Notes under the pieces: generated by a model
Told to the model about the DNA's origin: nothing
The model's input: the letters and a program-made list of their open reading frames with translations, nothing else
The model's database searches: none
Part shown: in pieces, positions 4,601 through 40,640 of the stretch
Layout of the letters: each line of letters begins with the position of its first letter
How positions within the stretch are numbered: the stretch's first letter is position 1
Made by a program: the position numbers and the translations under genes
Assembly (NCBI RefSeq): GCF_032854445.1
Contig: NC_088304.1
Location: 8,631,704-8,695,703, forward strand
Length of the DNA stretch: 64,000 nucleotides
Direction of reading: 5' to 3'
From: Liolophura sinensis
Taxonomy: Eukaryota; Mollusca; Polyplacophora; Chitonida; Chitonidae

Positions 4601-4690
4601 TGCGCGTGGTTGTATGCGTGCGTATGTGTGCGTGGATGTGTGCGTAGGTGCGTGCGTGTGTGTGTATGTATGTAAGGATGGATGGATGTT
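4600..4690. repeat. degenerate TG-rich microsatellite
   Basis: An alternating gtgtgcgtg / tgtatg / gatgga tract on the + strand. The threonine/histidine-rich and valine/cysteine-rich frames over it are artefacts. Confidence 0.8.
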
Positions 4691-4960
4691 CGCTTGGGTT
4701 TTTACGTCGTTCTTAACAATTTGCATATGATGACGAGGACTCATTAGGTGTGAGAATGCATATTGTGTCCTCTTGCGGCAGGGCGAGTGCATTTCGCCGA
4801 TGTGCTATAGCCACTGAAATATCATCCCGGAGACAGAAGATATAACACCCTGTCTAGACACATTATATAGACACCAGGCCAACCGGTCTTGTTTCCTTGC
4901 TTTAACCTCTGTGTGCTGAGTGTTTGTTTACGACCTTGGGTTGATCCCACATCAGGAAAG
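4690..4960 (-). repeat. SINE family S2, diverged copy
   Basis: The + strand reads the S2 3' end in reverse: gggtttttacgtcgttctta, aacaatttgcatatgatgac, then the middle (gcagggcgagtgcatttcgc) and the ggccaaccggtcttgtttcc word shared with 17190-17260 read in reverse. The tRNA head has decayed. The copy ends against a Tc1-like remnant. Confidence 0.75.
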
Positions 4961-11461: not shown

Positions 11462-11843
11462 ACGCCATACTCATGGACTTCTCAAGTGTACGATGGCGGT
11501 GGGAACATAGTAAGAAAATATGTGCTGATATGATGAGTGCAGATTTAATAAATGTGGGAAATATTTGTCGCTGCCCGTGTATCACAAGGTAAAATCGTAA
11601 TAAGTTATATTCAGCGAGTAATTCTAATGTATTAATGGTTGAAACTAATTCTAAGTGGGGAATTTCTTGGTGTTGTAGTTGTTCGACGCCATTTACTCCT
11701 TAATTTCTCCCTTATACGCTGGCGACCACTAAACTGTGAATAGAGGAAACCGAAGGTACCAGCGCAAACCTCGGAAGTCTGGCAAGTCACACATATATTA
11801 TAGTGAAATCTCCCTGGTATGATATGTCATTTTGGTCGGAATG

Positions 11844-12180
11844 AGTGCTTGGGGTTTAACGTCGTACTTAACAATTTTTCAGTCATATGACGACGAAGGA
11901 ATCCTTAGAGAGCATGTAATGTGCCTTCTTGATGCAGGGCGGATTTTCCATCGCTTTTATCTAGTGCTACTTCACTGAGAAGGCAAGTAAGCCGCCCCGC
12001 CCAAGCCATTGTACTGATACGGGTCGATTAAACGTTGCACTATCCCATTTATGCTGAACGCCAAGCGAGGAAGTTACAATTTCCTCTTTTAAGGTCTTAG
12101 ATGTGATTCGACCATGGATTGACCCTGGACCTACCGCTCCCTAAGCGGACGCTCTACCATCTGTGCTATCGAGGCCGGCC
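11844..12180 (-). repeat. SINE family S2, full-length copy with tRNA head
   Basis: Most complete S2 copy. Read on the - strand it starts at 12180 with a tRNA-like head: box A-like tagcacagatggtagagcg, a cloverleaf-like anticodon arm tccgcttagggagcgg, and box B-like agggtcaatccatgg. It continues through the GC-rich core (ggcttgggcggggcggctta) to the conserved 3' domain tcatatgactgaaaaattgt and taagtacgacgttaaacccc. The 3' domain resembles V-SINE-type elements reported from molluscs; that family name is from memory. It is not a functional tRNA gene. Confidence 0.88.
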
Positions 12181-16995: not shown

Positions 16996-17089
16996 GGCTG
17001 TGTGATAAAAAGCGATAATCTAGCACTTTATTTTGCAATGCCCCGAAGTATCTAGTCAACATGACCTCATGTTCTTCGGCGTAAGACGA

Positions 17090-17283
17090 AGTCGGCAGAC
17101 TTGGGATCAAACGGGGATCGGATGATTTCGAAGATTTAATATATGCAGTTGTTGTTGAGTAGCTTGGTACTCAACAGTGAGAGATTAGAGCAAGGAAACA
17201 GGACTGGTTGGCCCGGTGTCAGTATAATGTGACTGGGCGGGGTGTCATGTCTAGTGTCTTCGACATGATACTTCAGTGGCGGC
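17090..17283 (+). repeat. SINE family S2, left third of a copy split by two insertions
   Basis: The words agcaaggaaacaggactggt, tggcccggtgtcagtataat and gacatgatacttcagtggcg are the S2 5' half in + orientation. It stops at the CGGC target duplication (17280-17283) of the solo LTR. The SINE resumes at 18089 and again at 21161. Confidence 0.85.
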
Positions 17284-18088
17284 TGTTACGACTCAAACTG
17301 CCTGTATTATAAAGAGATGGCTTGTTCGAAATACACGACAGTTTAGCCGCACAAAAAAGTAACGAAAGCCAGCAGATTTTATTTTACAAAAATTTATTAG
17401 GTTTAACAAGAACAGATAACAAGACTTTTACAAATACTAAAGTACTTAAGTTTAACAAGAAAGGATAGCAGTATCTATACAAATACTAAAGTACTTAAGC
17501 TTAACAAGAAAGGATAGCAGTATCTATACAAATACTAAAGTACTTACATGTACAGCGGTGTCAAGTCCAAACGGACGCATATATTGCACAATATATACCA
17601 CACAGGCATAAATGCTCAGAGGCAAATTCACAAGAGAAAAAATCCACAGTATAACTGAGTGTATGACGAAATATACACAAAATTCCACAGACAGGGTCCC
17701 TGTACTAATAAGCACTGTGTACACAAGAGCACAATTTAAATATACAAGCTCAAAGGGAACAAGTGCTCGGTGGAGATATGATATAACAAAGCCAGAGGCG
17801 ATAAAGACACCAAAATTCAGCACAAAAGGCCTACACACAGCGAAAGCATCCAAAACTCTCAATAACTCTCCTTTCTCTCCGTTTGACCTGCTTTCATAGG
17901 TCTTATATAGCCTGGTGGAATTGTCTAGAATAAGAAAATTCCTGAGCACTTGATGTAAACAAACAGGCCCCGAACTGAGCGTATTCTGGAACATTCTAAG
18001 GTAGAGGCAGACAGCAGGCCCTGAACTTCAGCGTATGTAAACAGTGGCAAGCTAAATTTAGAAGCTGACGGCAGTCGTGCACATAACA
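17284..18088. mobile_element. solo-LTR-like element, 805 bp, 4 bp target duplication
   Basis: The element begins TGTTACGACTC and ends GTGCACATAACA, so it has TG...CA ends with a short imperfect inverted repeat (TGTTA / TAACA). It is flanked by direct CGGC copies at 17280-17283 and 18089-18092. Removing it and one CGGC rejoins an S2 SINE (…cttcagtggcggcagcac…), which fixes the boundaries. It contains three copies of a 49 bp repeat (17395-17550) and a TATA-like ttatatagcc near 17907. There is no internal retrotransposon sequence, so a solo LTR, probably of a Ty3/gypsy type, is the best reading. The long - strand frame 17524-17994 is not a recognised protein. Confidence 0.75.
17395..17550. repeat. 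49 bp tandem repeat inside the solo LTR
   Basis: Three copies of aagcttaacaagaaaggata, gcagtatctatacaaatact, aaagtactt. The first copy is diverged (agaacagataacaagacttt); the last two are nearly identical. Confidence 0.85.
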
Positions 18089-18203
18089 CGGCAGCACACT
18101 GAAGGCATGGAATCGCCCAGCCAAGAGAAGACAGAGTATATGTACACACACCTAATGACTCCTCGTCATCACATGATCGAAAAATTGTTAAGCACGACGT
18201 TAA
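18089..18203 (+). repeat. SINE family S2, middle third of the split copy
   Basis: Continues the S2 copy: ggcatggaatcgcccagcca, cctaatgactcctcgtcatc, acatgatcgaaaaattgtta, agcacgacgttaa. It stops at the TTAA target (18200-18203) of the next insertion. Confidence 0.85.
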
Positions 18204-18879
18204 AGGAAAACTGTCAAGAATTTCTATATTTTGTGCCTCAGTATTGTTTTAAAAGTTCATATTGATAGTATTTGGGCCTCTTTAACCATACACGGCTTGT
18301 GTGTAGTTGTTTTGCGGCAGCCGGCGAAAAAGTCTGCTTGGCTGAATATGCATATTGTGAATTTCAAAGCGAGGCTGCCGAATCCGTGACGTCACAGTAA
18401 GAAGGCGCTGAATTCTTGAATATTGTGATAAAAGAGGATTTTTCTCAGTTAATTCTTTTAACAATAACAAATGTTGAAAACTGAAAGGCTGAAAGTAAAT
18501 ACTGTGTATATAATATATAGGCCTATTGTATTTAGCCGACCCCAATTACCAGTAAATAATGTTATTTCTAATTTCTAAGAACTCTGCAGCTTGGCTGGCA
18601 AGCTATATGTATTTTTAGCATGGTGCTTTAGTCTTCGGCAGAATAACTGCAGCTGGGGATGTTAAATTTTTAAGAGTTAGTCACAACTTGGTATATAAAA
18701 TCCTTTTTATAGAGAAACAATAGTTCTCAGGCTCGCTGGGTGAAGCCCGTTCACTTCCACCTATTACCTTACTGCTGTCATATAAGGGGAATACTTTTTA
18801 ATGCGGTTCAACATGAATTAATAAGTTTTAGTTCATATTTATTTTTATTTTTATATATATAATGTATTTAAACACTTTT

Positions 18880-19095
18880 TTCACCATGTGGACAGTAGAT
18901 GAACTCGTGTAGGAATTTGTAAAAGACAAGGGGAATGCTGATCCTGAGACATCTGGAGAGAACTGTCCTTTACCTTCAGAAGCTGACATCTTTTAAGTGA
19001 TGGCAGAGAAGGTTGTTACAGTAGCACGTCACTAGATCAGTGGCAACTCAGATAGGAAAGGCTCCCCAGAAGACAATAAATGGGGGAGTGTCTTT
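18880..19095 (+). pseudogene. coding-like relic inside the DNA transposon, not identified
   Basis: From the ATG at 18885 the frame reads like protein (WTVDELV, EFVKDKGNADPETSGENC, PLPSEADIF, VMAEKVVTVARH) but is broken by stops at about 18909, 18996 and 19033. It faces the P2X7-like remnant. It may be the C-terminus of the element's transposase or a host fragment. No motif was recognised. Confidence 0.3.
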
Positions 19096-19819
19096 CATGA
19101 CTTGTATAAATTATATGTAAAGCTTATTTGTACCGTTTGGCCAAATACTTGAATAACTGTCAAACTGTCTGAACATTTCAGTAAATTACAAGTATTATTG
19201 AAGTTTATCTTTTCCTTTTGACTAATTTTGTATCTTGATCTTCCCGCACTAGATTCTACCTAAACTGTATCCCACATGAATAGCTGCAAAAATTCAAAAC
19301 AGATACATACTATATATTGCGTTCATTCTTACCTTGTATATAGAAATTCACAAATGTTTCCTTATTTATCAAAACCAGAAAATCAAGACATTGCTGATTT
19401 GAGTGAATTTACTTCCTAAGGTTAAGCCTCGTGAAAAAAAGCTTTTGTTATTACATATGTTGCAGTTTGAAGCAATTTTTGTATTGCAAATCAAGTGATA
19501 TACTTTGCATAAACAAACTTGTTGTATTTTGTATAATTGAGTATGCATGTATCAGAAGTAAGTCTGGTGATAATATTTTCCTCATTCCTCATTCTTCTTA
19601 TTTCTCTTTTCTGAAACAAAAGTTGGTAACTATATGTAAATATTGAAATGCAAATGAACTGCACCGAAGTCAAATTGTTAGTTTATTTGGATACAACCAA
19701 GTTTGATTGAATAAGTTTACCTGGAGCTCCGACATTAAATCATGCTAACTTTAATTCATTTCTAGGTGTTTGTTTTCTTGTGACACATTCGTAATTCTAT
19801 TAAATTCGAAATAAAATCC

Positions 19820-20035
19820 ATGCCACTTATTTGTGTGGTGGATCATTGTCTTGGATGAGTCCATGGCCTTCCAAAAACTCATAAATGGCGGTCATTATAG
19901 CATGTCTGTTCGTACAGTTGACAATAAAGCCTTTGTGCTCGGTGATGTAACCTATGTAATCCTCGACACTTCCTGGCAGCAAAGGCACTCTACATTAGTT
20001 GGCATAAAAACGCAGTTCTTACAATAACACCTGAA
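19820..20035 (-). pseudogene. P2X7 C-terminal-domain-like protein remnant
   Basis: On the - strand the words MPTNVECLCCQEV and, after one frameshift, YITEHKGFIVNCTNRHAI and YEFLEGHGLIQDN follow the order of the cysteine-rich C-terminal domain of P2X7-like proteins (MPT..ES.CC.E, then ITEH.GF...CLN). Such domains occur in many invertebrate multicopy proteins. The upstream start is likely at 20932. The copy has a stop and frameshift and is not functional. It belongs to the surrounding DNA transposon. Confidence 0.7.
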
Positions 20036-20294
20036 AATAAGAATATAGATTTCATGCTGAGGGAGGGCCATATATAAATCGATAGATTCCTTGATACGGT
20101 GAGACAGTTAACTCTAAGTCTGTGCTGACGTAAAATATTTGTTCTTGTAAAAATATGCATCTTGATCAATTTTCACTTGCACATTGTTGACTCAATTTGA
20201 CGTGAATCTAAAAAGACCGAATCTTTTTATTTTATCGTGATATTCTAAATCGTGGATATTAGGGCTCTTTACCCGCTTGAGGCAGCGGCAAGCG

Positions 20295-20598
20295 GACGAC
20301 AAGGTGATAGATAACATGAGAAGGAATAGGAAAATGAACAAAACTGGGCAATATTTTGAGAGCTACGGCTTACAATAACCAGAAATTACAGTATGCTTAC
20401 TACAGAACAATCTGCCTAGCATATGTAAATTATGAACGTTAAAGAAACCTAGTTTTGGACTTATGATGCCGTGATTCAGAGGTCTTTATTAACGCCCATG
20501 TTATTTTGACAATGTGTTCACCGTTGTGTCTGCGTGAGAAAAGCGTGTTGGCGCGAGTAAAACCACTAATGCCGGGATGTCCGCGGTCTCAAATAGCA
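20295..20598. repeat. repeat shared with 21570-21900
   Basis: About 300 bp of collinear similarity to 21570-21900: cgacaaggtgatagat versus cgacgaggtgaaagat, ataaccagaaattac versus ataacctgaaattac, cagaacaatctgcctagcat versus tagaacaatctgcacaaact, and cgggatgtccgcggtctc versus cggatgtacgaggtctc. One copy is inside the transposon, the other outside it. Confidence 0.6.
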
Positions 20599-20692
20599 AA
20601 GAAATTTATTTATTTGATTGGCTATTTAAGCCCTGCTCAAGAATATTTCGTTTATACAACGGCGACCAACATTATTTTGCTAGGAAATCGTA
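20599..20692 (-). repeat. SINE family S1 fragment inside the DNA transposon
   Basis: aaatttatttatttgattgg tail, then agaatatttcgtttatacaa and cggcgaccaacattattttg. Only the 3' part is present, consistent with a 5' truncated insertion. Confidence 0.8.
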
Positions 20693-20705
20693 AAATAACA
20701 AGGAA

Positions 20706-20932
20706 TTAACTGAGATAAAAGGTAGTTACCAACTCAAGTTGTGAGTCGAAAATCTTTGGTTTCTGACAGCTGTCGCCGTGGTCAGACTCGCTGTCAGATG
20801 AATGAGGAGAGCAGTTTACTGAACTGATTCCCTGAGCTCCACGCGTTGAATCGGTTCGTGTACGATCACACATGGGTCGACAGGTGATATACACATTGGA
20901 ATTTCCAGTATGTCTGTTTCACAGTCCGACAT
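20706..20932 (-). pseudogene. N-terminal region of the transposon-borne P2X7-like protein
   Basis: The ATG at 20932 opens a frame (MSDCETDILEIP...) preceded by a GC-richer promoter-like tract with tgacgtca at 21015. A second frame from about 20894 carries a serine/aspartate-rich stretch (SVNCSPHSSDSESDHGD). Acidic N-termini are common in P2X7-like multicopy proteins. A single indel would join the two frames. The domain tract at 19820-20035 lies downstream on the same strand. Confidence 0.45.
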
Positions 20933-21160
20933 GATTTTATTTTTGTATTGTCTCGTCGAAGATTTGATTTGGTATAAGTGAACAGTGTTGTTCAGTATGA
21001 GCCAGTTCTTACGGTGACGTCAGCGGGATCACGTGACGGGCAGTTCGTCGCCACGGGAAGCGTGCGAGGCGGTAAACAAACGTGTATATTCGTTATAATG
21101 GGGGCTTATGGGGTTATTATTAAATAAATACAGATATCATAAGATGTTGACAGTATTCCT

Positions 21161-21200
21161 TTAAACCCAAATCACTCATTCATTCATTCCTCAGAATAAC
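21161..21200 (+). repeat. SINE family S2, 3' end of the split copy
   Basis: ttaaacccaaatcactcatt followed by cattcattc is the S2 3' terminus. It completes the copy begun at 17090. Confidence 0.8.
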
Positions 21201-23889: not shown

Positions 23890-25712
23890 ATCTACTATAG
23901 GATGTAGAATCATTACTGGTGGAGGCGGAATCATACGTGTGGGAAACACAATCTTTACTCCAGGATGCATAATCATAGCTGTTAGTACGACAGTCATGAC
24001 CCAGGAGAAAATCATACCTATAAGAGGTAAAATTATCACTTTAGGAGGCAGAATCATACGTATGGGAAACACAATCGTTATTCTAAGAGGCAGAATTATT
24101 ACTGTGGAAAACAAGAATGATAACTTTTTGAGGCAGAATCATAACAATGGGGGGGGGGGGGGGGGGGTCGAATCATCACTTCATGAGAGAGAATCATAAA
24201 CATAGAGGGTACAATCATCATTTCATGAGAGAAAATCATAAATATGGGGGGTACAATCACCACTTCATGAGGCAGAATCATAACAATGGGGGGAGGGGGG
24301 CGAATCATCACTTCATGAGAGAGAATCATAAACATAGAGGGTACAATCATCATTTCATGAGAGAAAATCATAAATATGGGGGGTACAATCACCACTTCAT
24401 GAGGCAGAATCATAACTATGGGGGGAGTCGAATCATCACTTCAGGAGGAGAATCATAACTATGGGGGAGTCGAATCATCACTTCAGGAGGAGAATCATAA
24501 CTATGGGTGGTAGAATCATCACTTCAGGAGGAGAATCATAACAATGGGGGGGGGGGGTCGAATCATCACTTCATGAGAGAGAATCATAAATATAGAGGGT
24601 ACAATCATCATTTCATGAGAGAAAATCATAAATATGGGGGGTACAATCACCACTTCATGAGGCAGAATCATAACAATGGGGGGGGTCGAATCATCACTTC
24701 ATGAGAGAGAATCATAAATATAGAGGGTACAATCATCATTTCATGAGAGAAAATCATAAATATGGGGGGTACAATCACCACTTCATGAGGCAGAATCATA
24801 ACAATGGGGGGAGTCGAATCATCACTTCAGGAGGAGAATCATAACTATGGGTGGTAGAATCATCACTTCAGGAGGAGAATCATAACTATGGGGGGGAGTC
24901 GAATCACCACTTCATGAGGCAGAATCATAACAATGGGGTGGGGAGTCGAATCATCACTTCAGGAGGAGAATCATAACTATGGGTGGTAGAATCATCACTT
25001 CAGGAGGAGAATCATAACTATGGGGGGAGTCGAATCACCACTTCATGAGGCAGAATCATAACAATGGGGTGGGGAGTCGAATCATCACTTCAGGAGGAGA
25101 ATCATAACTATGGGTGGTAGAATCATCACTTCAGGAGGAGAATCATAACTATGGGTGGGAGTCGAATCACCACTTCATGAGGCAGAATCATAACAATGGG
25201 GTGGGGAGTCGAATCATCACTTCAGGAGGAGAATCATAACTATGGGTGGTAGAATCATCACTTCAGGAGGAGAATCTTAACTATGGGGGGAGTCGAATCA
25301 TCACTTCATGAGGCAGAATCATAACAATGGGGGGAGAGTAGAATCATCACTTCAGGAGGCAGATTCATAACAATGGGGGGAGTAGAATCATCACTTCAGG
25401 AGGCAGATTCATAACAATGGGGGAGTAGAGTCATCACTTCATGAGAGAAAATCATAAATATAGGGGTACCATCAACACTTCATTAGGGAGAATTATAAAT
25501 GTGGGGGTACAATTATCACTTCATGAGGCAGAATCATGACAATGGGGGAAAGTAGAGTCATCACTTCAGGAGGAGAATCATAACTATGGGTGGTAGAATC
25601 ATCACTTCATGAGCGAAAATCATAAATATGGGGGATACCATCATCATTTCATGAGAGAAAATCATAAATATGGGGGTACAATCATCACTTCATGAGGCAG
25701 AATCATAACTAT
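23890..25712. repeat. G-rich minisatellite, about 44 bp unit, with higher-order trimers
   Basis: About 41 units built on tcgaatcatcacttcatgag, then gcagaatcataacaatgggg with a variable G run. Subtypes (gaggcagaatcataac, gaggagaatcataac, gagagaaaatcataaa) alternate. From 24901 to about 25290 a trimer of roughly 131 bp is repeated three times (phase marks at 24901, 25032, 25164). G runs reach 18 or more at 24149 and about 10 at 24545. Asparagine/histidine-rich and methionine/isoleucine-rich frames over it are artefacts. Confidence 0.93.
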
Positions 25713-26120
25713 GGCATTTAAGTACTTCAACACAGTATCGAAAGACCACAGAAGCGTGGGCGGGATTATATCTATTCTGCTTCAGGATTTATGGATAAAT
25801 TTTAATTTGATAGCGCGTCACGGTGATGTACGGCTCGGAGATCCTGGGTCAAGTAGAAGTGGGTTAGGGTATATATGTACCTGGTGAAGTGTAAGATGCA
25901 TCTCCATCGAAATAAACAAGTATGAAATTAAAAAATGCCGCTCTCGTTTTACACTATACTGCAGTTTTTTCAGTGGTGAAATGGAGAAATTTACAATGCT
26001 GCAGGTGTAAAGACTCAGTATATTTTAATCTTACTTATTTTTCAAATATGGAAGATGCTAGTTAAGTTCACACCGGCCCAATGAAAACGATCACACTCGC
26101 TGTTTACATGAGATTAACCA
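25713..26120. other. short single-copy stretch, nothing recognised
   Basis: No coding signal, tandem repeat or SINE copy between the G-rich array and the next A/B fragment. Confidence 0.4.
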
Positions 26121-26979: not shown

Positions 26980-27428
26980 AAAGTCATCAACACGACAGTT
27001 CCAGTAATCAACACGGCAGTTCCAGTCATCAACACGGCAGCTCCAGTAATCAACACGACAGCTCCAGTAATCAACACGGCAGTTCCAGTAATCAACACGA
27101 CAGCTCCAGTAATCAACACGGCAGCTCCAGTAATCAACACGACAGCTCCAGTAATCAACACGGCAGTTCCAGTAATCAACACGGCAGCTCCAGTAATCAA
27201 CACGACAGCTCCAGTAATCAACACGGCAGTTCCAGTAATCAACACGACAGCTCCAGTAATCAACACGGCAGTTCCAGTAATCAACACGACAGCTCCAGTA
27301 ATCAACACGGCAGCTCCAGTAATCAACACGACAGCTCCAGTAATCAACACGGCAGTTCCAGTAATCAACACGGCAGCTCCAGTAATCAACACGACAGCTC
27401 CAGTAATCAACACGGCAGTTCCAGTCCC
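26980..27428. repeat. minisatellite, 21 bp unit
   Basis: About 21 copies of tccagtaatcaacacggcag plus c or t. Two subtypes alternate (cacgacagctcc and cacggcagttcc or cacggcagctcc), so part of the array expanded as dimers or longer blocks. It is nearly free of indels. One + frame reads a 7-residue repeat SSNQHGS/SSNQHDS for 168 codons from the ATG at 26928. This resembles a low-complexity repeat protein, but the other + frame and a - frame are equally open, so the DNA repeat is the simpler explanation. Confidence 0.92.
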
Positions 27429-27454: not shown

Positions 27455-28440
27455 GGGCATCAACACGATAACATCACCCGTCTTTGCCGTACAAAAGAAC
27501 ATGTGTGTTCTCTAACGGGCATCAACAGGACAACATCACCCGTCTTTGTCATAAAAGAGAACATGTGTGTTCTCTGGCGGGCATCAACACGACAACATCA
27601 CCCGTCTTTGTCATAAAAGAGAACATGTGTGTTCTCTAACGAGCATCAACAGGACAACATCACCCGTCTTTGTCATACAAGAGAACATGTGTGTTCTCTG
27701 GCGGGCATCAACAGGACAACATCACCCGTCTTTGTCATACAAGAGAACATGTGTGTTCTCTAATGGACATCAACACGCTAGCGTCAGCCGTCTTTGTCAT
27801 ACAAGAGAACATGTGTGTTCTCTAACGGGCATCAACAGGACAACATCACCCGTCTTTGTCATACAAGAGAACATGTGTGTTCTCTAACGGGCATCAACAG
27901 GACAACATCACCCGTCTTTGTCATACAAGAGAACATGTGTGTTCTCTGGCGGGCATCAACAGGACAACATCACCCGTCTTTGTCATACAAGAGAACATGT
28001 GTGTTTTCTGGCGGGCATCAACAGGACAACATCACCCGTCTTTGTCATACAAGAGAACATGTGTGTTCTCTAACGGGCATCAACACGCTAGCGTCAGCCG
28101 TCTTTGTCATACAAGAGAACATGTGTGTTTTCTGGCGGGCATCAACAGGACAACATCACCCGTCTTTGTCATACAAGAGAACATGTGTGTTTTCTGGCGG
28201 GCATCAACAGGACAACATCACCCGTCTTTGTCATACAAGAGAACATGTGTTTTCTCTAACGGGCATCAACACGCTAGCGTCAGCCGTCTTTGTCTTACAA
28301 AGGAACATGTGTGTTCTCTAACGGGAATCATCACAATAACGTCAGCCGTCTTTGTCTTACAAAGAAACATGTGTGTTCTTAAACCGGCATCAACACGATA
28401 GCCTCAGAGGACTTTGTCTTACAAAAGGGCATGTCTGCTC
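27455..28440. repeat. minisatellite, 62 bp unit
   Basis: About 16 copies of a 62 bp unit: gggcatcaacaggacaacat, cacccgtctttgtcatacaa, gagaacatgtgtgttctcta, ac. Alternating subtypes include acacgctagcgtcagccg. Because 62 is not a multiple of three and the unit has no stop in any + frame, long frames (106, 175, 181 residues) exist in all three + frames, each repeating every 186 bp. The right edge decays near 28400. Confidence 0.93.
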
Positions 28441-36769: not shown

Positions 36770-38540
36770 CGTGGAGAAATGCTGTGTCTATTCGTGCAAT
36801 GGTGTCTGTGCCCATTTGCGTAACCGTCTTATCATGACAAAATGTTGTGCCCATTTGTGTAACAGCATGTAATAATGACAAAATGCTGTGCCCATCTGTG
36901 TAACAGTGTCTAATCATGCCAAAATACTGTGCTCATTTGTGTAACAGTGGTTAATTATGGTAAAAGGCTGTCTCTGTTTGTGTAAAGGCGTCTAATCATG
37001 GCAAAACGCTGGTCCCGTTTGCGTAGCGGCATCTAATCATGACAAAATGCTGTGCCTATTCGTGTAAAAGCGCTTAATCATGGTAAAATGCTGTGCTTAT
37101 TCGTGTAACGCCGTCTAATCATGGTAAAAGGCTGTGCCTGTTTGTGTAACGGCGCCCAATCAGGGCAAAATACTGTGCCCATTTGTGTAACGGCAACTAA
37201 TCATGACAAAATGTTGTGCCTATTCGTGTAACGGCGCCTAATCAGGACAAAATGCTGTGCCCAGTTGTGTAACCGTCTAATCATAGTTAAACGCTGTGTT
37301 TATTCGTGTAACAGCATCTACTCATTACAAAATGCTGCTTCCATTTGTGTAACAGCGCTTAATCATGGCAAAATGCTGTGCGTATTCGTGTAACGGCAAC
37401 TAATCATGACAAAATGCTGTGCTTATTCGTGTAACAGCGCTTAATTATGGTAAAACGCTGTGTCTGTTCGTGTAACAGCGTCTAATCATGGCAAAATGCT
37501 GTGCCCATTTGTGTAACAGTGGTTAATCATGGTAAAATGCTGTGCCCATTTGTGTAACAGTGTCTAATCATGGCAAAATGCTGTGCCCATTTGTGTAACA
37601 GCGCTTAATCATGGTAAAACGTTGTCCCTCCGTATAACGGCGCTTTATTTATGGTAAAATGCTTTGCTTGTTCGTGTAACGCCGTCTAATCATGGTAAAA
37701 TGCTGTGTCTGTTTGTGTAACGGCGCCTAATCATGGCAAAATGCTGTGTCCAGTTGTGTAACAGCGCTTAATCATGGTAAAACGCTGTCCCTTTGTGTAA
37801 CGGCAACTAATCATGACAAAATGTTGTGCCCCTTTGTGTAACGGCGTCTAATCATGACAAAATGCTGTGCCCTGTTGTGTAACCGTCTAATCATGGTTAA
37901 ACCATGACAAAATGCTGTTTCCATTTGTGTAACAGCGCCTAATCATGGTTAAATGCTGTTCGTATTCGTGTAACGGCAACTAATCATGGCAAAATGCTGT
38001 GCCCATTTGTGTAACAGCGTCTAATCATGACAAAATATTGTGCTCATTTGTGCAACAGCGCTTAATCATGGTAGAAGGCTGTGTCTGTTCGTGTAACAGC
38101 GTCTAATCATAACAAAATGTTGTGCTCATTTGTGCAACAGCGCTTAATTATGGTAGAAGGCTGTGTCTGTTCCTGTAACAGCGTCTAATCATGGCAAAAT
38201 GCTGTGCCCATTTGTGTAACAGCGCTTAATCATGACAAAATGCTGTGCCCATTTGTGTAACAGTGTCTAATTATGCCAAAATGCTGTGCCCATTTGTGTA
38301 ACAGCGGTTAATAATGACAAAATGCTGTGCCCATTTATGTAACAGCGCCTAGTCATTTTAAAACGCTGTGTTTGTTCGTGTAACGGCGTCTGATTATGGC
38401 ATAATGCTGTGCCCATTTGTGTAATAGCGCTTAATCATGGTAAAATGCTGTGCCCATTTGTGTAACAGCGCTTAATCATGGTAAAATGCTGTGTCTCTTC
38501 GTGTAACGGCGTCTAATCATGACAAAATGCTGTGCCCATA
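36770..38540. repeat. minisatellite, 41 bp unit, about 43 copies
   Basis: The unit reads aatcatggcaaaatgctgtg, cccatttgtgtaacagcgtc, t, with variants (tattcgtgtaacggcaac, ggttaatcatggtaaaa). The array stops in mid-unit at about 38540, exactly where LINE coding sequence begins, and does not resume after the LINE. Stops occur in every unit, so there are no long frames. Confidence 0.95.
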
Positions 38541-38607: not shown

Positions 38608-39099
38608 TTGTCGAAATTACATGCTTTATCCATACTCCATGGATATGAGTCGTTATTTGTGGAGATCGCTGCTCCGTCAAATGTCTGTGTTGTTGGAATT
38701 ATTTATCGCCCTCCAGGCAAAAACGTGTGTCTTTTTAATGAAAAACTAAGCACAGCCCTTTGTCATTTACCCGCAAACAACAAATGTATTATCTTGGATG
38801 ACTTCAATATAGACTTATTCAAGTGTGAAAGCCATTTACCAACAAACGATTTTTTCGAACTAATGAAGTCTCATTACCTTTTCCCTTCCATTACAAAACC
38901 CACTCGAGTACGTTCTCGCCCTGCTACCCTTATAGATAACATCTTCACAAACTTACATGCTCAACGCAGTTTCTCCGGTATATTTTTAACAGATATATCT
39001 GACAATTTCCCTATATTCAATATCTTCTCGACTTATGCTTTTTCGAAAGAAAAATCAACTTACAAGTCAATCTGTTTAAAGAAAATGTTCACAATATAG
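38608..39099 (+). pseudogene. LINE endonuclease (EEP) domain fragment
   Basis: A 163-codon open frame covering the second half of an apurinic-type endonuclease. VVGIIYRPPG is the family word near residue 28. DDFNIDLF near residue 70 holds the catalytic Asp and Asn; the usual Gly is Asp. SDNFPIF near residue 135 replaces the catalytic His of the SDH box with Asn. The first half, including the SETWL region, is deleted. Even without the truncation it would lack activity. Confidence 0.8.
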
Positions 39100-39679: not shown

Positions 39680-40640
39680 TCATTTCGCCCAACCAATTTG
39701 GTTTTAGACCTGGGCACTCTACTACTCACGCGGAGTGCACTCTATACAACTACCTCGTAGTTGCCAAAGACGCCAAACAATACTGTGTTGTGTTTCCTTG
39801 ACCCGTCAAAAGCTTTTGACACTGTCAACCACAAAATCCTACTACGAAAACTCGAATACTATAGGTTTCGAGCTCACAGCGCTCAATGGTTGGAGAGCTA
39901 AATATATGGGCGATCCCAATCAGTTCAGGGAAATATGTCAAAAGAACGTAAGGTAAATTGCGGTGTTCCCCAGGGCTCCATTCTCGGTCCTATATAATTC
40001 TTATTGTATTTATTTATTCATTTGATTGGAGTTTTACGCCGTACTCAAGAATATTTCACTTATACGACGGCGGCCAGCATTATGGTGGGTGGAAACTGGG
40101 TAGAGCCCGGGGGAAACCCACGACCATCCGCAGGTTGCTGACAGACCTTCTCATATACGGCCAGAGAGGAAGCCAGCATGAGCTGGACTTGAACTCACAG
40201 CGACCGCATTGGTGAGAGACTCCTGGGTCATTAACCGACTGAGCCACGGAGGGCCCAATTTTTATTGTACATCAATGACATCACAGCATCATCAGACATT
40301 CTGGATGTTACATTATTTGCTGATGATGCAAATGTCTACACTTATGCGCCTACAAGCGCCGAGGCTGTATTGACTATGTCTGTAGAGTTGCATAAAATTT
40401 CCGATTGGCTGACAGCTAACCGCTTGTCCTTTAATATTTTTAATATGGCGTTGAAATAGCCAGTCTTCAAGAACACAAGTTCTTAGGAGCTTATTTTAAT
40501 TCAAATTCATCTTGGACATCTCACATAAGCTTTATTAGTAAGAAGGTATCCAGAAATATTGGCATCATCAAACATATTCGAGCAAATGTCAACAAAAAAA
40601 CACTTCTTATTTCGTTCTACTCTTATATTATAATAATTAA
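39680..40640 (+). pseudogene. LINE reverse transcriptase domain, interrupted by a SINE
   Basis: RT motifs are recognisable across frames: NQFGFRPGHSTTHA (39690), DPSKAFDTVNHKI (39800), CGVPQGSILGP (39958-39990), LLYINDI (40262) and the catalytic box FADDANVY (about 40315). After the box comes HKISDWLTANRLSFN and HKFLGAYFNSNSSWTSHI. Frames change several times, and the S1 insertion at 40008-40256 splits the domain between GP and LLYIND. Confidence 0.82.
40008..40256 (-). repeat. SINE family S1 inserted in the LINE, with 12 bp target duplication
   Basis: Nearly complete S1 copy reading tail to head on the + strand (tttatttattcatttgattg, gacggcggccagcattatgg, gcagatgagc-type core, tRNA head aaccgactgagccacggagg). 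It is flanked by aattcttattgt (39996-40007) and aatttttattgt (40257-40268), a 12 bp direct repeat with one mismatch. The target lies within the RT reading frame, giving exact insertion boundaries. About 17 bp of the tRNA head is missing. Confidence 0.93.

Follow-up and report, generated by a model that had tools for sequence, protein, structure and literature searches.

Two insertions in one short interspersed element copy of Liolophura sinensis: a putative Kolobok transposon and a putative solo long terminal repeat

The Kolobok DNA transposons and the gypsy-type retrotransposons include the closest described relatives of two elements that split one copy of a short interspersed element (SINE), here called S2, in a 64,000-nt stretch of Liolophura sinensis DNA (NC_088304.1; "the window" throughout). 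For the Kol0 lineage of Kolobok (Kolobok-1_XT type, with the T2 family of miniature inverted-repeat transposable elements, MITEs, in Xenopus), the sections of two papers drawn on here describe TTAA target repeats, AGGRR-type ends, a THAP transposase and KolX, which has a P2X7 ballast domain (PMC6004289, PMC9587614). The same sections give as marks of the THAP transposase C2CH, P, W, F and an AVPTIF box, together with DDE, DxxH and H2CH. The Kol0 hosts named in this part of PMC9587614 are vertebrates, annelids, cnidarians and sponges. The link between Kolobok, KolX and the P2X7 ballast domain was already published there by Kojima and Bao in 2022, so a ballast domain within a transposon, considered by us as an unreported feature, is not one; Rump 2020 does not use the stem "transpos" in its main text. 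In the Gmr1 clade of gypsy elements, as described in parts of two further papers, the integrase is upstream of the reverse transcriptase and RNase H (PMC8220671, PMC6238403). A SINE part that lies inside a DNA transposon and is copied with it is known from MER6, described in part of PMC6887750, which is a mariner MITE with the body and tail of V-SINE.

It is highly probable that the locus investigated here is an old S2 copy hit by a Kolobok transposon that bore the 3' end of a second SINE, S1, and by a separate gypsy-type retrotransposon with long terminal repeats (LTRs), later reduced to a solo LTR. The transposon family has the TTAA, the AGGRR-type ends, the THAP transposase and the KolX with ballast domain of Kol0. 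The window copy differs in being without the THAP and DDE-region exons, and the family in that an S1 3' end sits between the first two KolX exons. The LTR element is like Gmr1 in its TG...CA LTR and its 4-5 bp target repeats. In one relative (L065) an integrase C-terminus precedes RNase H, which recalls the Gmr1 order, but only partial interiors were seen, with no reverse transcriptase between these domains. As in MER6, a SINE part is co-copied inside a DNA transposon; here, however, it is the S1 3' end only and the host element is a Kolobok. Every classifiable component belongs to a known kind, of which these are new members. A preliminary description of this DNA had treated both inserted elements as otherwise unnamed, but a superfamily can now be given for each: the LTR is gypsy-type and possibly Gmr1-like, and the transposon is a Kolobok of the Kol0 lineage. 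For these two repeat families the locus provides exact ends, checked against empty sites, and a corrected order of events. Additionally, it would add a Kol0 family with an opposite-strand KolX, which bears on the published proposal of a transposon of this sort as the source of the P2X7 intracellular domain.

Presumably S1 and S2 resemble Nin-SINE and other molluscan tRNA SINEs in their tRNA-like head and conserved tail. Neither was matched to a named SINE family from the literature, where PMC11121367, in part, gave no sequence to compare.

The split SINE and the order of its insertions

The S2 copy lies on the plus strand in three parts. The 5' part, with a tRNA-like head, spans 17060-17283 (its start placed by eye, its right end by alignment with 32 other S2 copies) and ends in the target CGGC at 17280-17283. 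The middle part, set by the boundary reading and the S2 alignment, spans 18089-18203 and has CGGC first (18089-18092) and TTAA last (18200-18203). The 3' end, 21161-21190 with its right limit by eye, begins with the TTAA repeat (21161-21164) and carries a CATT-type tail, which like the head was recognised by eye. The two CGGC copies bracket an 805-bp TG...CA segment (17284-18088) and the two TTAA copies a 2957-bp segment (18204-21160), the ends of which, counting the TTAA, are inverted repeats identical at 17/18 positions. With both inserts and a single CGGC and TTAA removed, the three parts align as one S2 copy. The boundaries, target repeats and empty sites thus bear out the preliminary description of an S2 copy split by two independent insertions with exact ends, one an 805-bp TG...CA element in CGGC, its coordinates exact, and the other a 2957-bp TTAA transposon with inverted ends. 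Its S2 pieces (17090-17283, 18089-18203 and 21161-21200) are indeed continuous, but the start belongs near 17060 by eye and not at 17090.

What do uninterrupted S2 copies look like at these two junctions? A search of the 609-Mb assembly, in which all genome searches were run, with the window copy 4690-4960 gave 40 matches including itself; S2 match counts are lower bounds because only the best 40 of 1717 candidates were scored. The alignment set comprised 32 copies, of which 30 were genome loci (the window copy at 4690 among them) and two were the copies at 11844 and 51722 of the window. Against the joined parts of the split S2, 32/32 had zero extra bases at both junctions, and none naturally held either insert. 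The S2 tail is variable directly beyond the TTAA junction. With a clear match defined as at least 11/20 bases alike on each side (at least 7/12 on the right of the TTAA junction), both sides matched clearly in 29/32 copies at the LTR junction and 22/32 at the TTAA junction. The copies at 4690, 11844 and 51722 had been taken to define the empty sites. This holds for the TTAA junction, but at the LTR junction the last two are diverged (7-8/20 bases alike on the right) and can be used for the TTAA junction only. CGGC is kept in 14/32 copies and TTAA in 13/32, with TAAA in 10/32, and both targets are native to S2. Two points count against the empty sites as evidence: match quality lowers their support from 32/32 to the 29 and 22 clear copies, and the selection of S2 loci by best match favours uninterrupted copies.

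S2 is the oldest insertion at the site. Both other insertions are younger because they are nested in it, and nesting leaves the LTR and the Kolobok unordered. The private branches of the window copies are 0.103 for S2, 0.056 for the Kolobok and 0.031 for the LTR over 805 bp; three Kolobok blocks taken separately gave 0.054 (a 1045-bp block), 0.061 and 0.063. Since the private branch of the Kolobok is longer than that of the LTR (about 56 private changes in 1045 bp against about 25 in 805 bp), the Kolobok probably inserted before the LTR. An LTR that came first is rather unlikely, with 0.031 over 805 bp set against 0.054 over the 1045-bp block; in its favour, nesting gives no order, the branch difference is modest and sampling is unequal between the families. 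An order read from branch lengths also depends on sampling and on equal rates, which tells against the Kolobok-first order. The order first proposed (S2 oldest, the LTR and the TTAA element next in no stated order, S1 last) is correct for S2 and not for S1, which did not arrive last.

With the Kolobok first, the transposon, already with its S1 3' end and probably already non-autonomous, would have been moved by a transposase acting in trans and would have entered the S2 tail at its TTAA, which was duplicated. A gypsy-type LTR retrotransposon would have entered CGGC separately, and LTR-LTR recombination would have cut it down to one LTR.

The putative solo LTR

The segment 17284-18088, minus strand, is best read as the solo LTR of a gypsy-type retrotransposon, from its genome matches, its target repeats and the interiors beside two relatives. 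At least 43 matches were found, the best 40 of 1164 candidates being scored. Among 29 other loci the match starts at 17283-17284 in 26 and stops at 18088-18090 in 28. Matches in L063 and L068 start later than 17284, and the one in L045 extends 7 and 15 bases beyond the LTR ends, with its own TG...CA and GGTC repeats still in the expected place. Perfect 4-5 bp target repeats flank the LTR at 19/30 loci, the window included. The L051 and L055 LTRs occupy one common site, and the target repeat of L060 may stem from a nearby second LTR. In minus orientation, TATATAAG is at position 180 (about 17909 in the window) and AATAAA at 691 and 706 (about 17398 and 17383), in the order expected for U3-R-U5. 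Three tandem 49-bp units, found by repeat analysis and not assigned to a strand, occupy 17397-17546; copies of the LTR range from 736 to 817 bp, perhaps by the number of these units.

Two relatives, L061 and L065, with the same flanks on both sides, run on into an interior with frames of 321 and 374 aa, respectively. The 374-aa frame matches Integrase_p58_C (4.6e-9) and then RT_RNaseH (3.8e-27) in Pfam, with no reverse transcriptase between integrase C-terminus and RNase H, and the LTR family is possibly Gmr1-like. A purine-rich stretch on the minus strand lies beside the L061, L065 and L078 LTRs by eye. One frame of the window LTR had no meaningful Pfam match; it was scanned singly with eight frames of the Kolobok copy L077, and eight of these nine frames gave nothing at E<=1, the other a match without meaning at 0.42.

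Could the 805-bp piece be no solo LTR at all but a short element of another type or a segment of a composite repeat? We consider this very unlikely. No primer-binding site was recognised in the single 166-bp piece inspected (L079), and no full LTR-interior-LTR copy was read. Set against this are the TG...CA ends, the target repeats at 19/30 loci, the correctly ordered TATA and poly(A) signals, and the pol domains beside the L061 and L065 LTRs. The solo-LTR reading is weakened at two points: 11/30 loci have no perfect target repeat, and the class assignment rests on two flank-sharing relatives because the window LTR has no interior.

That the LTR copies at C11:10290273 and C11:10299214 bound a single ordinary element was not borne out, no pol frame being recognised in a 2-kb sample between them. 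A stretch between these copies (L080) resembles a frizzled-type cysteine-rich domain by eye, and L078, at the edge of the pair, looks like the L061 interior by eye.

The Kolobok family and its S1 piece

The 2957-bp element (18204-21160, plus strand, ends AGGAAAACTGTCAA and TTGACAGTATTCCT) is classified as a non-autonomous Kolobok transposon of the Kol0 lineage, from genome matches, shared termini and the THAP exon of its relatives. The search gave at least 107 matches including its own copy, the best 40 of 1309 candidates being scored, and eight copies (L069-L076) were compared along with a 7.04-kb copy on C10, L077. Their common ends are TTAA-AGGAATACTGTCAA...TTGACAGTATTCCT-TTAA, with minor changes in some copies. 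The termini AGGAA...TTCCT of the window element and its copies fit the 5'-RR...YY-3' AGGRR type. Among L069-L077 the shared right terminus was located in 9/9 and the left in 7/9 (the left end of L071 is outside the piece obtained and L076 gave no exact match). Both TTAAs are intact in the window, L069, L073, L074, L075 and L077; in L070, L071, L072 and L076 one is altered or out of view.

Inside the element, at 20604-20695 on the minus strand, lies the S1 piece, delimited from copies and a tree. The preliminary description had noted an S1 fragment within the transposon, which is present, but it is the S1 3' end only; the further claim that S1 was the latest arrival does not stand. An S1-like piece is at the same internal place in 12/12 other Kolobok copies (L003, L004, L006 and L069-L077), shortened in L069 and L071, and in L077 it lies between KolX exons 1 and 2. 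A tree of the 13 pieces carried by Kolobok copies and 12 of the 14 free S1 matches places the former in a single clade, separate from the free copies (support 0.995). Because of this common position and separate clade, the S1 piece entered the Kolobok family before the window copy inserted. That S1 instead inserted into the window copy after it had landed in S2 is extremely unlikely: the stretch from 20604 is 73-83% like the 14 free S1 matches of the window, as late insertion would have it, but against this stand the 12/12 copies and the clade, and the resemblance of the piece is 82-87% to other Kolobok-borne pieces and 65-77% to the 12 free S1 copies in the tree.

The 3' tails of S1 (40005-40110, minus) and S2 (11840-11960, minus) are alike over 50 bp (78% identity, E 2e-10, two-sequence comparison), and this common tail suggests that the two SINEs use the same long interspersed element (LINE) partner. 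The S1 3' end is kept across two Kolobok subfamilies, and we think it improbable, if worth stating, that it is no passenger and may serve the transposon in splicing, termination or LINE-partner recognition. If it did, a Kol0 element would regularly spread a SINE tail and a P2X7 ballast domain together.

The assignment to Kolobok and Kol0 follows from the TTAA, the RR/YY ends, THAP and KolX, because these are the published marks (PMC6004289, PMC9587614, in the sections cited). The THAP domain (PF05485) was matched at 5.2e-14 on a frame of L073, with AVPDIP read by eye. The exon was matched in L069, L070, L073, L075, partly in L076, and also in L077; it was not matched in L071 (left part incomplete), L072, L074 or the window copy. 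L077 contains further frames with transposase-like motifs by eye and has the same ends as the family. Encoded on its other strand is a 198-aa KolX, assembled from three exons with splice sites chosen by eye; it matches P2RX7_C (PF20478) at 2e-12 over residues 55-192 and a solved P2X7 structure at 0.0055, and retains the CDC-NC and CLCC cysteines by eye. KolX exon 2 alone had no Pfam match at E<=1, and P2X7 was absent from its PDB match list. Could the TTAA element be a piggyBac, or belong to another TTAA-targeting superfamily? Hardly: TTAA duplications are common to piggyBac and Kolobok, and a few piggyBac families encode a KolX-like protein without most of the seven cysteines (PMC9587614, in part), but the AG...CT ends, the THAP exon and an opposite-strand KolX with CDC-NC and CLCC cysteines fit Kol0.

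Several points sit less well with the Kolobok account. Neither the window copy nor any of L069-L076 (n=8) yielded a DDE-region exon, and because of this the transposase that would have moved the window copy is inferred from three close genome matches. Among these only L077, of a diverged subfamily, was read, and its candidate DDE/DxxH/H2CH residues (GGDARCDS, ITDRH, DVWH, LEVYHN) were picked by eye, unaligned. The L077 DDE-region frame had three close and four distant genome matches, with an open 126-aa transposase-type frame at three places. Six transposase-type frames of L077 had no meaningful Pfam match.

Gene remnants, related copies and other features of the window

Damaged KolX exons remain in the window copy on the minus strand, both identified by comparison with relatives: exon 1 at 20734-20932 and a shortened exon 2, the ballast domain, at 19833-20029. 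The exon 2 remnant has an equal count of gap positions (28) in L003, L069, L071 and L072. Against L077, exon 2 shows uncorrected synonymous change of 0.36-0.44 and nonsynonymous change of 0.06-0.12 (eight non-independent comparisons, codons with gaps or stops excluded). For the THAP exon and for exons 1 and 2 of KolX, comparison of the two subfamilies gives more synonymous than nonsynonymous change (uncorrected), a pattern as for genes that were once under constraint.

Comparison with relatives also revealed two points at which the window copy lacks a segment. At 18409/18410 the missing segment is 496 bp in L069, 441 in L070, 143 in L072 and 515 in L073; in all of these but L072 it includes the THAP exon. 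At 19310/19311, 165-210 bp present in L069-L073 are missing; by eye, this segment is where transposase exon 2 begins. The second subfamily (L073, L075 and L077) is near-identical in the tree, has about 99% or more identity in the exons compared, and so was recently active.

P2RX7_C had eight genome matches. Three, at C10:52267, C8:52682229 and C4:372343, are near Kolobok or transposase matches; the other five have no nearby entry among the Kolobok and transposase matches listed. The C4 ballast-domain match (372343-372528, plus) and a distant transposase match (376729-376878, minus) are about 4.2 kb apart, and this pair is probably another Kol0 family.

Other elements were recognised by eye at Kolobok copies: a non-LTR reverse transcriptase fragment within L074 (1035-1496) and a Tc1/mariner-like transposase in the L004 locus (3-695). 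Elsewhere in the window there are long tandem arrays at 24157-25714 (unit 132/42 bp), 26982-27425 (21 bp), 27455-28395 (62 bp) and 36806-38539 (41 bp), and an open frame at 38608-39099 resembles a LINE endonuclease by eye.

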